This document shows, in pieces, positions 2,213 to 44,386 of a DNA stretch of 64,000 nt (position 1 is its first letter; every line of letters begins with the position of its first letter). The DNA lies in the NCBI RefSeq assembly GCF_000384215.1, contig NZ_KB913032.1, forward strand, positions 6,595,605-6,659,604. The letters run 5' to 3'. This DNA is from Amycolatopsis alba DSM 44262 (lineage in GTDB: Bacteria > Actinomycetota > Actinomycetes > Mycobacteriales > Pseudonocardiaceae). The translations under genes were made by a program, and so were the position numbers. The notes beneath the pieces are model-generated. The model was not told the DNA's origin and searched no databases. It saw only the letters and a list, made by a program, of their open reading frames with translations.

Positions 2213-3049
2213 ATGGAACACACCTCGGGTAAGTCTGCGCTGCCCGCCGCGTACTTCTCGTCGGCGACCTCGTCGTTCTCGGACTTCCTTCGGGCTCAGG
2301 CGCCCGAGCTGCTCCCGGAGCGGCGTGTCCCGTCCGGTGCGGGCGGGCTGGACGCGCCGCACGGGACGACGATCGTCGCGGTCAAGTTCGCGGGCGGGGT
2401 GCTGATCGCCGGTGACCGGCGGGCGACGTCGGGCAACCTGATCGCTTCGCGGGACATGGAGAAGGTTCACGTCACCGACGAGTACTCGGCGGTGGGCATC
2501 GCGGGCTCGGCCGGGCTGGCGATCGAGATGGTGCGGCTGTACGCGGTCGAACTGGCGCACTACGAGAAGATCGAGGGTGTTTCGCTCTCGCTCGACGGTA
2601 AGACGAACAAGCTCGCGGGGCTGGTGAAATCCAACCTCGAGATGGCGATGGCGGGGCTGGCCGTGCTGCCGCTGTTCGTCGGTTACGACCTCGACGCGGA
2701 AGACGCGAAGCACGCGGGCCGCATCGTCTCGTACGACGCGACGGGCGGGCGTTACGAGGAGAGCGCCGGCTACCACGCCATCGGCTCGGGTTCGCTGTTC
2801 GCGAAGGGCTCGTTGAAGAAGCTTCACGACCCGGACGCGGACGCCGAAGGCGCGATCCGCGTCGCGGTGGAGGCGTTGTACGACGCGGCGGACGATGACA
2901 CCGCGACCGGCGGACCGGATCTGGTGCGCCGGATCTTCCCGACGATCGTGACGGTCACCGCGGAGCAGGGTGCGGTGACGTTGCCGCTCGAGCAGACGAC
3001 AGCGGTGGCCGAGGCCATCGTGGCCGCGCGAGCCGAGCGCGGCCGTTAG
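2213..3049 (+). CDS. prcB: PrcB: 20S proteasome beta subunit (catalytic)
   Basis: The 278-residue precursor carries a propeptide of 51 residues. Autocatalytic cleavage in [12 protein letters not shown] would expose Thr52 as the N-terminal nucleophile. The GDRRAT segment and the GSGS loop near residues 187-190 are normal for active beta subunits. The product forms the inner two rings of the chamber that degrades pupylated proteins. It lies 72 bp after pup and 51 bp before prcA, consistent with one operon. Confidence 0.97.
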
Positions 3050-36168: not shown

Positions 36169-37752
36169 TCAGCCGACCCAGCGTTGGATAGCTGTGTCGA
36201 GCAGCTTCCGCGCGTTGTCAGCGTTGTCAGCGGAGTCTTCGGAGACGTCGGCCCACGCGATGATCCCGTCCGGGCGCACGAAAAGGCTCGCGGTGTCGGC
36301 GGCCGGATCCGCCGTGTAGGCGACCTTGTCCGCCAACTCGTGGACAGCGTCGGCATACCGGCCGTCTGGCGAGCGGTCGACGAGTATGAAGCGGCCGTCG
36401 TGCGCGTGATCGGCGAGCCGGGCCCCGGACTTCAGCTCGACGTCCCCGGCGATCGAACCGACCGGAGCGGTGGCGTCGTCGGCGACGTCGTAGTGCTGCA
36501 GGATCCCGGAGGAGAGCGCGATCATGTGGTTGGTCGCGCCGGGGACGCCGAACAGTTCGTCGCCGACGACCTTCCGCAGCTGAGCGGTCCGTTCGTCACC
36601 GCGCATGAGCGCCACCTGCGCCCGCGTCCAGTCCAGGACCCACGCCCCGATCGGGTGCCGTTCGGAATGGTAGGTGTCGAGCAGCCCAGCGGGGGCCTGG
36701 CCGTTGATGGCCGCGGCGAGTTTCCAGCCGAGGTTCACGGCGTCGCCGAGGCCGAGGTTGAGCCCCTGGGCGCTGAACGGCGAGTGCACGTGAGCGGCGT
36801 CGCCGGCGAGGAAAACCCGGCCGTGGCGGTACGTCCGGACCTGGCGGGCGTTGTCCGACCACCGGGTCGCACGCCCCCGCAGTCCCGTGATCGTCACCGG
36901 CACGCCGGTGACGTCCCGTACCGCGGCCTGCAGCTCTTCGGCGGTCACGGGAGCGTTCTTGTCCTCGGGCTGCGGCGCGAACCTGGCCACGAGGATGCGT
37001 CCCGGAACCGGTCCGTAGGTGTAGATGCCGCGAGGTGTCCAGTTCCATCCGCGGCGCAGTTCGCTCGGGTCGTCGAAGTCCGCGATGGCCTGGTAGCCCA
37101 CCAGTTCCGGATCGGTGCCCACGAAGTCGATGCCGAGCCGCTTGCGGATGACGCTCCGCCCGCCGTCGGCCGCGGCGACCCAGCCTGCGGTGAAGTCGCC
37201 CGCGCTGGTCTCGACGACCACGTCCGCGTCGTCGTCGAGTGCGGACCCGGTGCTCCGCAGGCCACGGACCTCGACACCGCGGCGGATCTCGACGCCCAGC
37301 CGGGCGCAATGCTCGCCGAGCAGCAGTTCGAGGTCGTGCTGCGGCACCAAGATCCCGTTCGCCACCGCCGTGTGGGCGGCCAGCACCGGATCGTCCTGGT
37401 CGATCAGGTCGTGCCGGAACATGATCCCGGCGAAATGCCCGACGACCGCGAACCGGCGGGACTTCCGGCCCGCCGCGGCCGTCAGTTCGCGCACGATCCG
37501 GTTCGTACGGCCGCCGGTGAAGGCGTTGGCCTCCGCCAGACGACGGCGCTGTACCTCCTCCGCGGCGGGCAGCAGGCCGCGCCGGTCCAGGATCTCGGCG
37601 CTGGCGACGTTGAGCGAGCCGGATTTGATCGTCGGATCGGGCTCCTCGAGCCGCTCCAGCACGGTCACCCGTACTCCTCGCAAGGCCAGCTCGCTGGCCA
37701 GGAACAGGCCGGTGGGCCCCGCGCCGACCACCACCACGTCGATTCGATTCAT
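36169..37752 (-). CDS. FAD-dependent aromatic monooxygenase (PheA/TfdB type)
   Basis: The 527-residue group A flavoprotein has GxGxxG in VVVGAGPTGLFLASELA (6-22), DG in AAADGGRSVIRKRLGI (about 200), and GDAAHVHSPFSAQGLNLGLGD (about 315-335), the FAD ribityl motif. The C-terminal thioredoxin-like region lacks obvious cysteines. Related enzymes hydroxylate phenols or inactivate rifamycins; the substrate is not readable. It is divergent from a TetR gene, with an operator between. Confidence 0.88.
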   Translation of the reverse strand: MNRIDVVVVGAGPTGLFLASELALRGVRVTVLERLEEPDPTIKSGSLNVASAEILDRRGLLPAAEEVQRRRLAEANAFTGGRTNRIVRELTAAAGRKSRRFAVVGHFAGIMFRHDLIDQDDPVLAAHTAVANGILVPQHDLELLLGEHCARLGVEIRRGVEVRGLRSTGSALDDDADVVVETSAGDFTAGWVAAADGGRSVIRKRLGIDFVGTDPELVGYQAIADFDDPSELRRGWNWTPRGIYTYGPVPGRILVARFAPQPEDKNAPVTAEELQAAVRDVTGVPVTITGLRGRATRWSDNARQVRTYRHGRVFLAGDAAHVHSPFSAQGLNLGLGDAVNLGWKLAAAINGQAPAGLLDTYHSERHPIGAWVLDWTRAQVALMRGDERTAQLRKVVGDELFGVPGATNHMIALSSGILQHYDVADDATAPVGSIAGDVELKSGARLADHAHDGRFILVDRSPDGRYADAVHELADKVAYTADPAADTASLFVRPDGIIAWADVSEDSADNADNARKLLDTAIQRWVG

Positions 37753-42485: not shown

Positions 42486-42595
42486 TCCCTCAGATCGCGA
42501 AAACCTCCGGTCTCGATTCTCGGTCACCGGAGCGCCGCTGTCGCGGTATGGGGACACAGACCACTCTGTGAACCTGTACACAACCTTTAATTCGT

Positions 42596-42624
42596 TTTAC
42601 CCGCCCGCGTTCTCCCGCTACCGT
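42596..42624 (+). promoter_or_regulatory. Promoter of the ABC-F leader
   Basis: TTTACC (42596-42601), 17 bp, and TACCGT (42619-42624) lie 7 bp before the leader-peptide ATG. The AT-rich run directly upstream of the -35 box (42585-42599) resembles WhiB7-type promoters; that link is a guess. Confidence 0.5.
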
Positions 42625-42631
42625 TCTCGGC

Positions 42632-42655
42632 ATGGGGATTTTCTTCACTCTGTGA
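42632..42655 (+). CDS. Seven-residue leader peptide for the ABC-F gene
   Basis: ATG to TGA encodes MGIFFTL. It has no Shine-Dalgarno site and would be translated leaderless from the adjacent promoter. Its stop codon overlaps GATTCTCG (42654-42661), which pairs with a segment directly before the ABC-F ribosome site. The position before a terminator and a resistance gene is that of a drug-sensing stalling peptide. Confidence 0.6.
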   Translation: MGIFFTL

Positions 42656-42740
42656 TTCTCGTCTTCGACGCGGCCCTGGCGTAGAGCCTTCGCTCCGCCG
42701 GGCCGCGTCCTTCCGCATGTTCTTTTTCCTTGCGAGAATC
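42654..42740 (+). promoter_or_regulatory. Attenuator: terminator stem within a second, outer stem
   Basis: GACGCGGCCC (42667-42676) pairs exactly with GGGCCGCGTC (42700-42709), and the stem continues inward through GGCG/CGCC. A T-rich run TTCTTTTTCCTT (42720-42731) follows 10 bp later. Outside it, GATTCTCG (42654-42661) pairs exactly with CGAGAATC (42733-42740), immediately before AGGAGG (42741-42746). A stalled ribosome at the leader stop would block the outer stem and alter readthrough or access to the ribosome site. Confidence 0.65.
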
Positions 42741-42754
42741 AGGAGGACGCCCCT

Positions 42755-44386
42755 GTGCGTACCCCGCATCGAAATCCCGGAACACAACTCGTGCTTTCCG
42801 GCGTCACGAAACGTTTCGACGACCATGTCGTGCTCGACCAGGTCTCCTTCAGCGTCAAACCGGGGGAGAAGGCGGGAGTCATCGGCGACAACGGCTCGGG
42901 CAAGTCCACCCTGTTGAGGCTGATCGCTTGCCGCGATCGGGCGGACAACGGCACGGTGACCGTCACGGCGCCCGGAGGCGTCGGCTATCTCCCGCAGACG
43001 CTGGAGCTGTCCGGCACCGCCACGGTCGGGGACGCGATCGACCTCGCGCTGGCCGACCTCCGGGAGCTGGAATCCCGGTTGCGGGCGGCCGAGACTTCGC
43101 TGGAAACCGCCGAAGACCTGGCCGTTTACGGCGATCTCGTGACCGCCTACGAAGCCCGCGGCGGCTACGAGGCCGACGCCAGGGTGGAAGTCGCCCTGCA
43201 CGGACTCGGTCAGCCGGGCCTCGATCGCGGCCGCGCGCTGGGCAGCCTGTCCGGTGGACAGCGGTCGCGGCTGGCGCTCGCGGCCACCTTGGCCGCGTCG
43301 CCCGAACTGCTGTTGCTGGACGAGCCGACCAACGATCTCGACGACGAAGCCGTCGCCTGGCTGGAGAACCACCTCCGCGGGCATCGCGGCCGTCTCGTCG
43401 CGATCACCCACGACCGGACGTTCCTCAGCCGGGTCACCACCACGATCCTCGAGGTCGACGCCGACCGGCGGACCGTGCACCGGCACGGCAACGGCTACGC
43501 GGGTTATCTCGCGGCGAAGGAGGCCGCGCGGGCCAGGTGGGCCCGCGAGTACGAGGAGTGGCGGCTGGAGAAGTCCCGGTACGAAAGGATGGCGGACGTC
43601 AACATCGACCGGTTCTCGGCGATCCCGCGCAAGGCCCCGGCGGCCTTCAGCGGAGCGGGCGCGTTCCGGGCCCGGTCACGGGCGCACGGGGCGATGAGCC
43701 GGATCCGGTCGGCTCGCGAGCGGATCCAGCGGCTCGACGCGGACCCGGTCCCGCCACCACCGCAACCGCTCCGGTTCGCCGCGAGGATCGCCGCCGGTGA
43801 GGCGGAAGCCGACCGGTACGTCGTCAAGGTGGACGGTGTGTCGGTGGACGGCCGCCTGCCGCGGACGTCGCTCAGCGTGCTGCCCGGTGAGCGGGTGCTC
43901 GTGACCGGACCCAACGGGGCGGGGAAAACGACCCTGATGCGGGTGCTCGCCGGTGAACTGGCGCCGTCGACAGGGTCGGCGGAGCGAGCAGGCCGGATCG
44001 GGTTCCTGCACCAGAACGGCGGGCTCGCCGTCGACGCCCGGACCGTCCTGGCGGTCTTCGCCGGAGACAGCGACAGTGACGATGACGAGGAAGCGGCCGA
44101 GCGGCTGCTGTCGCTGGGCCTGTTCCGGGCGCCGGATCTGCGCAAGCCGGTGCGGGACCTGTCCGTCGGGCAGCGTCGCAGGCTGGAACTGGCGAGGCTG
44201 GTGACGGCCAGGACCGACCTGCTGCTGCTCGACGAGCCGACGAACCACCTCGCCCCGGACCTCGTGGAGGAGATGGAGCAGGCGCTCGCGGAGTACTCCG
44301 GCGCGCTGGTGGTCGTCACGCACGACCGGCGGATGCGCCGGACGTTCGAGGGCAGGCGGCTGGAATTGGTCACCTCAGCGGCGTGA
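42755..44386 (+). CDS. ABC-F ribosome-protection protein (antibiotic resistance type)
   Basis: The 543-residue product has two ATP-binding cassettes and no membrane helices: Walker A GDNGSGKST (44-52), signature LSGGQRSR, Walker B with DEPTNDLD; then GPNGAGKTT, LSVGQRRR and DEPTNHL. The interdomain linker (about 240-330) is basic and long enough to reach the peptidyl transferase centre. Such proteins displace macrolides, lincosamides, streptogramins or pleuromutilins. GTG start, AGGAGG 8 bp upstream. It is preceded by the leader attenuator. Confidence 0.9.
   Translation: MRTPHRNPGTQLVLSGVTKRFDDHVVLDQVSFSVKPGEKAGVIGDNGSGKSTLLRLIACRDRADNGTVTVTAPGGVGYLPQTLELSGTATVGDAIDLALADLRELESRLRAAETSLETAEDLAVYGDLVTAYEARGGYEADARVEVALHGLGQPGLDRGRALGSLSGGQRSRLALAATLAASPELLLLDEPTNDLDDEAVAWLENHLRGHRGRLVAITHDRTFLSRVTTTILEVDADRRTVHRHGNGYAGYLAAKEAARARWAREYEEWRLEKSRYERMADVNIDRFSAIPRKAPAAFSGAGAFRARSRAHGAMSRIRSARERIQRLDADPVPPPPQPLRFAARIAAGEAEADRYVVKVDGVSVDGRLPRTSLSVLPGERVLVTGPNGAGKTTLMRVLAGELAPSTGSAERAGRIGFLHQNGGLAVDARTVLAVFAGDSDSDDDEEAAERLLSLGLFRAPDLRKPVRDLSVGQRRRLELARLVTARTDLLLLDEPTNHLAPDLVEEMEQALAEYSGALVVVTHDRRMRRTFEGRRLELVTSAA

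Follow-up and report, generated by a model that had tools for sequence, protein, structure and literature searches.

The window analysed here, a 64,000-nucleotide (nt) stretch of Amycolatopsis alba DSM 44262 (contig NZ_KB913032.1, positions 6,595,605 to 6,659,604), contains in front of an ABC-F ribosomal protection-like gene a conserved RNA element consisting of a seven-codon leader open reading frame (ORF), an outer stem joining the end of this ORF to the Shine-Dalgarno sequence of the ABC-F gene, and a hairpin nested within that stem. The element is real and conserved. It looks like a familiar general type of attenuator that has taken a new form, and we infer for it a role in drug sensing. 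We consider it probable that it works by ribosome-mediated translation attenuation from a leaderless mini-ORF, with a drug-stalled ribosome as the trigger. An initial annotation of this DNA, made from its letters, had placed here the leader ORF MGIFFTL, the hairpin, an 8-bp outer pairing, AGGAGG and the ABC-F gene, and all five lie where it put them. The features are as follows:

42596-42601, + strand: putative promoter, weak -35-like box TTTACC, separated by a 17-bp spacer from the -10-like box
42619-42624, + strand: putative promoter, -10-like box TACCGT, seen in the sequence and kept in relatives
On the leader ATG or no more than about 2 nt from it, + strand: expected transcription start, from the promoter spacing
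42632 (ATG) to 42655 (TGA), + strand: leader ORF MGIFFTL of 7 codons, probably leaderless
42648-42661, + strand: left arm of the outer stem (codons 6-7, the stop codon and the next 6 nt), from the fold
42654-42661 with 42733-42740, + strand: perfect 8-bp pairing of GATTCTCG with CGAGAATC, beginning at the leader stop codon
42667-42709, + strand: nested hairpin of 18 bp in three segments, from the fold, near-invariance and covariation
42679-42698, + strand: conserved hairpin core GCGUNGAG...CUCCGC, inside the nested hairpin
42710-42732, + strand: variable linker, T-rich from about 42719, with an insert of about 40 nt in some relatives
42733-42740 and 42741-42746, + strand: right arm of the outer stem, CGAGAATC, followed by the Shine-Dalgarno sequence AGGAGG, mostly paired in the free fold
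42755 (GTG) to 44386, + strand: ABC-F ribosomal protection-like gene of 543 amino acids, from a profile match

The RNA starting at the leader ATG has a minimum-energy fold of -56.7 kcal/mol (z -4.36), which none of 200 shuffled sequences equalled. Both by sequence and in this fold the Shine-Dalgarno sequence of the ABC-F gene is paired with a segment overlapping the leader ORF, and the outer stem and the hairpin are nested and coexist. The outer pairing had earlier been thought to start at the leader stop codon; this holds for its perfect 8-bp part, but the minimum-energy fold extends it into codons 6-7, where CTCT (42648-42651) pairs with GGAG of the Shine-Dalgarno sequence.

In the mechanism that we favor, transcription would begin at or beside the leader AUG, as the promoter spacing suggests, and 70S ribosomes would load there without a Shine-Dalgarno sequence. 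Between rounds of translation the tail of the mini-ORF, together with its stop codon and the bases that follow, would pair with the ABC-F Shine-Dalgarno sequence and the bases in front of it, to which this segment is complementary, and would thereby close the site; the nested conserved hairpin may bring the two outer arms together. A drug that is a substrate of the ABC-F protein, possibly a macrolide-type drug of the exit tunnel, would stall the ribosome on the mini-ORF, at about codon 4 of 7 or beyond in the window according to our model; the stalled ribosome would cover the left arm, the pairing would open and the ABC-F protein would be made. With the drug cleared by this protein, the leader would be expected to close again.

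Within Amycolatopsis we aligned a first set of 12 orthologues (89-100% identity, window locus included), all of which retain the ATG, the seven codons, the stop codon on the stem, the hairpin and both arms. The perfect 8-bp outer pairing is invariant in the 12 and the nested hairpin nearly so, and the -10-like box reads TACCGT in 11 and TACTGT in the remaining one. The leader is MGIFFTL in 8 of the 12 and MGIFFNL, MGFFFYL, MGFFFYM or MGTLSFL in the others. A covariance model built for the genus (R1) gave full-score matches to the element in 19 of the 80 genomes of the genus; these same 19 hold the listed ABC-F orthologues of at least 89% identity, with the ORF, the outer stem and the hairpin present in every one; the seven orthologue loci beyond the first 12 were inspected directly and likewise retain the ORF, the arms and the hairpin. 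One further, weak match precedes an orthologue of 71% identity with the leader MGTLHFL, and the leader of one relative has an in-frame extra codon (MGIFYFYL). The comparison of orthologous leaders that the initial annotation had proposed thus shows that the exact peptide varies, whereas the ORF is kept, along with the location of its stop codon on the stem and a pattern resembling MG(S/T)L. In four loci (L003, L006, L077 and L079) about 40 nt, GATCGCGATC among them, are inserted between the hairpin and the right arm; the arms and hairpin are kept despite this insert, so the length of the linker appears to be tolerated. The 11 named records of 89-95% identity all belong to Amycolatopsis, and an order-wide search with the genus model matched 9 of 397 genomes, all of the same genus. 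Since that model matched within the genus only, a broader model (R2) was built. A loose left-arm pattern allowing up to two mismatches matched all 80 genomes and gave no discrimination.

A wider set consisted of the 80 best named homologous loci, picked by the ABC-F protein alone, the upstream regions of which were scanned. In 44 of them we found a TANNNT box 6-8 nt before the start of an ORF of 3-9 codons, as against none of the 80 on the reverse strand. The core GCGUNGAG...CUCCGC follows within 45 nt in 42 of these 44 ORFs, which had been picked independently of the core; counted by two slightly different patterns, a core-containing hairpin occurs in 46 of the 80 loci. The core-bearing taxa include Streptomyces, Nonomuraea, Glycomyces, Streptoalloteichus, Goodfellowiella and Catellatospora. 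The two ORFs without the core are those of L121 and L141, and the latter (2900-3000) keeps the leader MGSL and an outer stem with a decayed hairpin core, which amounts to a natural experiment on the role of the core. The proposal of a leader-peptide attenuator, in which a ribosome covering the left arm frees the ribosome-binding site, is supported both by the 19 orthologues and by this recurrence across actinomycete families.

Out of 76 instances we retained 44 representatives that are less than 85% alike. Of these, 41 have a TANNNT box 6-11 nt upstream of the leader start (in 28 the distance is exactly 7 nt), as against a mean of 2.8 and a maximum of 9 in 200 shuffles; the choice of ORFs favored boxes at 5-9 nt, which biases the total somewhat and does not explain the peak at 7 nt. 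A box this close to the start leaves no room for a leader Shine-Dalgarno sequence, and the ORF would thus be leaderless, with 70S loading independent of such a site. The leaders have 4 codons in 24 representatives, 5 in 4, 6 in 11, 7 in 4 and 8 in 1. The commonest peptide is MG(S/T)L, the longer ones gain aromatic and leucine codons (MGTLFR, MGYLFL, MGTLLFFL), and those of Glycomyces are MLIFL, MWLYLR or MWLYFI. The window peptide MGIFFTL fits the MG(S/T)L-like series, so that its description as unusual, fair for one genome, gives way to that of one version of a wider leader family. Of the 24 leaders with four codons, 23 have GGN as codon 2, where each of the four third bases occurs, 23 have TCN or ACN as codon 3, and all have CTG as codon 4; besides Ser/Thr swaps at codon 3, the variation falls mainly on the third positions of codons 2 and 3. 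This pattern favors a coding function for the mini-ORF, as support rather than proof, given that some of the bases concerned are also constrained by their pairing with the ribosome-binding site.

The effect of a leader ribosome was modelled by counting the RNA as covered as far as 15 nt beyond the first nucleotide of the codon in the P site. For 25 of 37 leaders this model makes the ribosome-binding region cheaper to open by 3 kcal/mol or more. With the ribosome on the last codon the mean relief is 4.7 kcal/mol, as against 0.9 kcal/mol with shuffled leaders (32 of 36 representatives), and the native relief exceeds the shuffled one in 26 of the 32 (p = 1.5e-6). The mean unpaired probability of the window Shine-Dalgarno sequence rises from 0.17 in the free RNA to 0.34 with the leader covered. 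As far as such modelling goes, both relief and exposure support translation attenuation. Most Amycolatopsis leaders are predicted to open no earlier than codon 4, whereas a drop of at least 3 kcal/mol is reached already at codon 1 in 9 of 17 four-codon leaders. Codon number alone does not govern the point of opening in this model, since codon 1 already suffices in L080 and in four 6-codon leaders (L136, L167, L168 and L171).

The window protein passes the general ribosomal-protection ABC-F model (ribo_prot_ABC_F, NF000355.4) with 407.4 bits against a cutoff of 380. The nearest curated model is that of TlrC/CarA/OleB/SrmB (ABCF_producer), for which its 769.4 bits miss the cutoff of 800; among relatives with the element, L230 (904.8) and L113 (898.4) pass this model, whereas L151 (740.8) and L088 (785.1) fail it. 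According to the available parts of two papers this group is ARE4 and is linked to macrolide resistance (PMC6723617, PMC10201436), and the substrates of the window protein may accordingly be of the macrolide type.

The arms themselves differ between lineages and occupy the same place relative to the leader end and the Shine-Dalgarno sequence: GATTCTCG/CGAGAATC in Amycolatopsis, CCTTTAGAAAGCAG/CTGCTTTCTGGAGG in two Glycomyces and GGTTCCCTGT/ACAGGGGGCT in two Streptomyces. In a stricter helix test against shuffled arms the combined p was 3.5e-13 (36 loci). L126, with a doubtful start, was left out of the arm-swap, helix and relief tests, and L169 is without an assigned start. Duplexes between the leader end and the ribosome-binding site of 36 representatives have a mean of -26.8 kcal/mol when native and -22.3 kcal/mol when swapped, and none of 20000 permutations reached the native sum; the swap and the combined helix test both favor translation attenuation. 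Several points weigh against it. The swap comparison ignores kinship, with related loci sharing both arms. In 7 of the 36 (L096, L104, L127, L144, L145, L163 and L167) the native arm falls into the lower-ranking half, and taken locus by locus the helix test is significant in just 14 of 36. Among the 12 orthologues of the genus the stems show no covariation, because the helices hardly vary. In the model the relief in the window is just 1.9 kcal/mol (11.5 to 9.6), from codon 4 of 7 onward, and the exposure of the Shine-Dalgarno sequence, which rises by at least 0.15 in 11 of 15 leaders, hardly rises in one and falls in three. The core is lacking in 34 of the 80 homologous loci, which must be controlled otherwise. 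With the window protein under the TlrC/CarA/OleB/SrmB cutoff, macrolides as inducers are a guess. Lastly, a strict sigma-70 scan of the window region returned no promoter, so that the promoter call of the initial annotation now rests on the position of the boxes and on the conservation of the TANNNT spacing.

The initial annotation had also suggested that a stalled ribosome could change termination. On such a reading the GC-rich hairpin is a terminator, and the ribosome blocks it or favors an antiterminator, as with LmrC, MsrD and VmlR. Termination at hairpins without U-tracts is known in actinobacteria, and the hairpin is very stable and followed at a distance by T-rich sequence. According to the accessible portions of the sources, transcription attenuation has been published for several ABC-F genes including lmrC (PMC12421871, PMC8546547). 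The hairpin and the T-rich run that had been described behind it are both present, but the latter begins about 10 nt past the hairpin and not directly behind it, and a scan for hairpins with a direct U-tract found no terminator-like site in the window region. Moreover, the two conserved helices, outer stem and hairpin, are nested, so that neither excludes the other as a switch would have it, other competing folds not having been enumerated; by geometry a ribosome at the leader stop codon should reach only the foot of the hairpin; a plain terminator should need no sequence-conserved core; and the pairing of the ribosome-binding site goes beyond its controls in both the swap and the helix tests. 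We therefore regard transcription attenuation as unlikely. Control at both levels, with partial termination or pausing at the hairpin besides closure of the ribosome-binding site, would have a precedent in cplR, as described in the available part of that report (PMC10201436), and a pause at the conserved hairpin could serve as the signal coupling the polymerase to the leader ribosome. The window shows no direct sign of termination, and it is only in cplR that the Shine-Dalgarno sequence lies inside the terminator, which makes this dual arrangement rather improbable as well.

Turning to the hairpin, 43 distinct sequences gave 77 double-changed cells as against 38.6 when shuffled, with none of 500 shuffles as high and with 19-32 such cells in slid controls; pairing was 83.5% as against 74.4%. 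Two weaker measures gave changes on both sides in 8 of 13 pairs (6.6 when shuffled, with 39 of 500 shuffles reaching this value) and 24 further pair types (20.7 when shuffled, with 31 of 500 reaching it). The inner pairs are invariant in this set, partly because it was chosen by the core, and RNAalifold on the mixed alignment alone returned six inner core pairs only. On the sequences compared, the constraint on the core is greater than pairing requires. One might hence consider a 5' region bound by a protein or a ligand, riboswitch-like or autoregulatory through the bulged hairpin, with the mini-ORF incidental: the sequence GCGUNGAG...CUCCGC is kept across families though pairing alone would permit change, in sets picked by the core and also in the 42 of 44 ORFs that were found independently of it. 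The coding-like pattern of the mini-ORF, its fixed promoter spacing and the retention of ORF and outer stem next to the decayed core of L141 all speak against such a region, and we consider it very improbable. Mimicry of rRNA by the core was a candidate that we rejected. In its own genome the core pattern has 7 matches and a looser one 43, scattered and with no repeated identical copies listed, as against 1 and 11 for reversed patterns; in the six matches to the core pattern outside the window no leader layout was recognised by eye. Rfam gave no match in the window at the gathering threshold; in ten relatives, compared at E-values up to 0.5, the sole matches were two chance ones to microRNA families, with scores well under the gathering scores of these.

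Going beyond translation attenuation as such, we tentatively propose that leaders of the MG(S/T)L type form a new class, extremely short and leaderless, of peptides that sense drugs for ARE4-like ABC-F genes, in which the position of opening depends on the leader. The bulged hairpin GCGUNGAG...CUCCGC would on this proposal be more than a spacer, namely a module recognised through its sequence by the leader ribosome, by RNA polymerase or by a protein. If this were true, leader design would set which drugs induce. The proposal seems to us doubtful, and we lowered our already limited confidence in it somewhat because the four 6-codon leaders and L080 open at codon 1. The natural leaders of 4-8 codons sharing one architecture make the role of the leader or its peptide in drug specificity directly testable, and with a leaderless ORF as the likely sensor, leaderless 70S initiation would become part of antibiotic sensing.

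The distribution of the element was followed with R2. Among 394 genomes of the class it gave 14 matches at E-values below 1e-4, several of them repeats of training loci; 13, window included, precede an ABC-F-like ORF and one is a false match in coding sequence. Of 11 weaker matches (E-values 1.2e-4 to 6.9e-4), L203 and L207 are followed by an ABC-F ORF and the other nine are not. The matches L191 and L224 were rejected as false. In 297 genomes of the family of G783, which is probably Streptomycetaceae because the leader of G783 equals that of L142 (S. netropsis), matches at E-values up to 1e-5 occurred in 20, and 17 were confirmed by a leader and a Walker-A ORF, the remainder being one false and two without confirmation. 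Nine of 200 genomes of the family of G698 (whose own leader is as in L168, Planobispora) matched, seven confirmed and one with a short ORF only. L223 has the leader and no ABC-F ORF by script, the ORF behind L226 has 111 amino acids, and the core pattern was not matched in the R2 hits L216 and L228. On plasmids, the element scores 67.7 bits in the relatives L230 and L231, which are annotated as TlrC/CarA/OleB/SrmB family and for which a gene table, incomplete by design, lists no leader; it is also present in L232 and L233 and absent from L234.

On a tree of 71 ABC-F proteins (L099, L165 and L167-L171 not entered; L109, L116 and L166 skipped for in-frame stops), the presence of the leader requires at least 7 changes, 5 of them forced by well-supported branches. 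Among the 31 members without the leader, 20 have TetR-type operator-like repeats upstream and 11 have neither; 3 of the 40 with the leader also have such a repeat, as do 14 of 30 instances found by R2 under a looser pattern. From these counts, the leader and TetR-type control occur alone or together. The repeats, inverted and of the GAGACG...CGTCT type, lie up to 420 nt upstream of the ABC-F gene in L105, L108, L111, L112, L114, L115 and others and are probably TetR operators. In the window itself, a perfect inverted repeat CACAGA-CCAC-TCTGTG (42555-42570) lies between a divergent Rv1733c-family gene and the ABC-F promoter; it is unchanged in 11 of the 12 aligned orthologues and is a possible operator. 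Elsewhere in the window, an FAD monooxygenase (36169-37752, - strand) has the rifampin monooxygenase model as its nearest, at 299 of 800 bits, far below the cutoff.

Attenuation has been published for the ABC-F genes vgaA, vgaL, msrD, vmlR, cplR, lmrC and are5sc, according to the available parts of the sources (PMC12421871, PMC8546547, PMC10201436). Our literature search, whose coverage left out most subscription papers, found no attenuator for the ARE4 branch of TlrC/CarA/OleB/SrmB-like proteins. The element would thus be a regulatory RNA without an Rfam match, spread over several actinomycete families, for an ABC-F branch for which no described attenuator was found. The Streptomyces genes are5sc, tiaA and lmrC (ARE5) are likewise actinomycete ABC-F genes with short upstream ORFs (uORFs), which in their case sense ribosome drugs and are given in the accessible text as MLV and MRS for are5sc and MVGDDDISG for tiaA (PMC12421871, PMC8546547). 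As described there, they differ in ABC-F subfamily and drugs and in their terminator/antiterminator models, and the uORFs of are5sc and tiaA have ribosome-binding sites; the available descriptions, on which rather than on sequences this separation is based, do not mention the hairpin core. As a separate observation, other ABC-F genes (42-43% identity; L016-L020, L023, L024 and L026), mostly of the same genus, have upstream a three-codon ORF at the start site (MKN, MRN, MNR, MKS, MES or MDH) with a TTGAC-type promoter in front, and these resemble the published ARE5 uORFs.

The polycysteine attenuators of mycobacteria are leaderless short ORFs of actinobacteria, as the window leader probably is, and differ in responding to cysteine and in controlling other genes. 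Such polycysteine leaderless short-ORF attenuators were reportedly described by Canestrari and co-workers in 2020. An early form of the idea of leaderless short-ORF attenuators in mycobacteria is found in the available part of PMC4633059. By protein, the closest known system is TlrC/CarA/OleB/SrmB (ARE4), the nearest model to the window protein, and the two plasmid relatives so annotated carry the element. The ermC leader peptide ErmCL also begins with MGIF, and its leader is longer than that of the window and has its own Shine-Dalgarno sequence. In ermC, as the accessible part of one report describes, a stalled leader ribosome exposes the Shine-Dalgarno sequence of the resistance gene (PMC10219788). 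In cplR of Clostridioides difficile (ARE1, uORF MRI), a uORF likewise precedes an ABC-F gene whose sequestered Shine-Dalgarno sequence is opened by stalling, and translational control is sufficient; by contrast with the window, where no terminator was found, that Shine-Dalgarno sequence lies within a U-tract terminator and an antiterminator forms, as far as the available text describes it (PMC10201436). What sets the window apart from cplR is that its uORF is leaderless-looking, that the end of this ORF is itself the anti-Shine-Dalgarno arm and that a sequence-conserved hairpin is nested within the stem, and it is this combination of a leaderless mini-ORF, an arm formed by its own end and a conserved nested hairpin that looks like a new form of attenuator.

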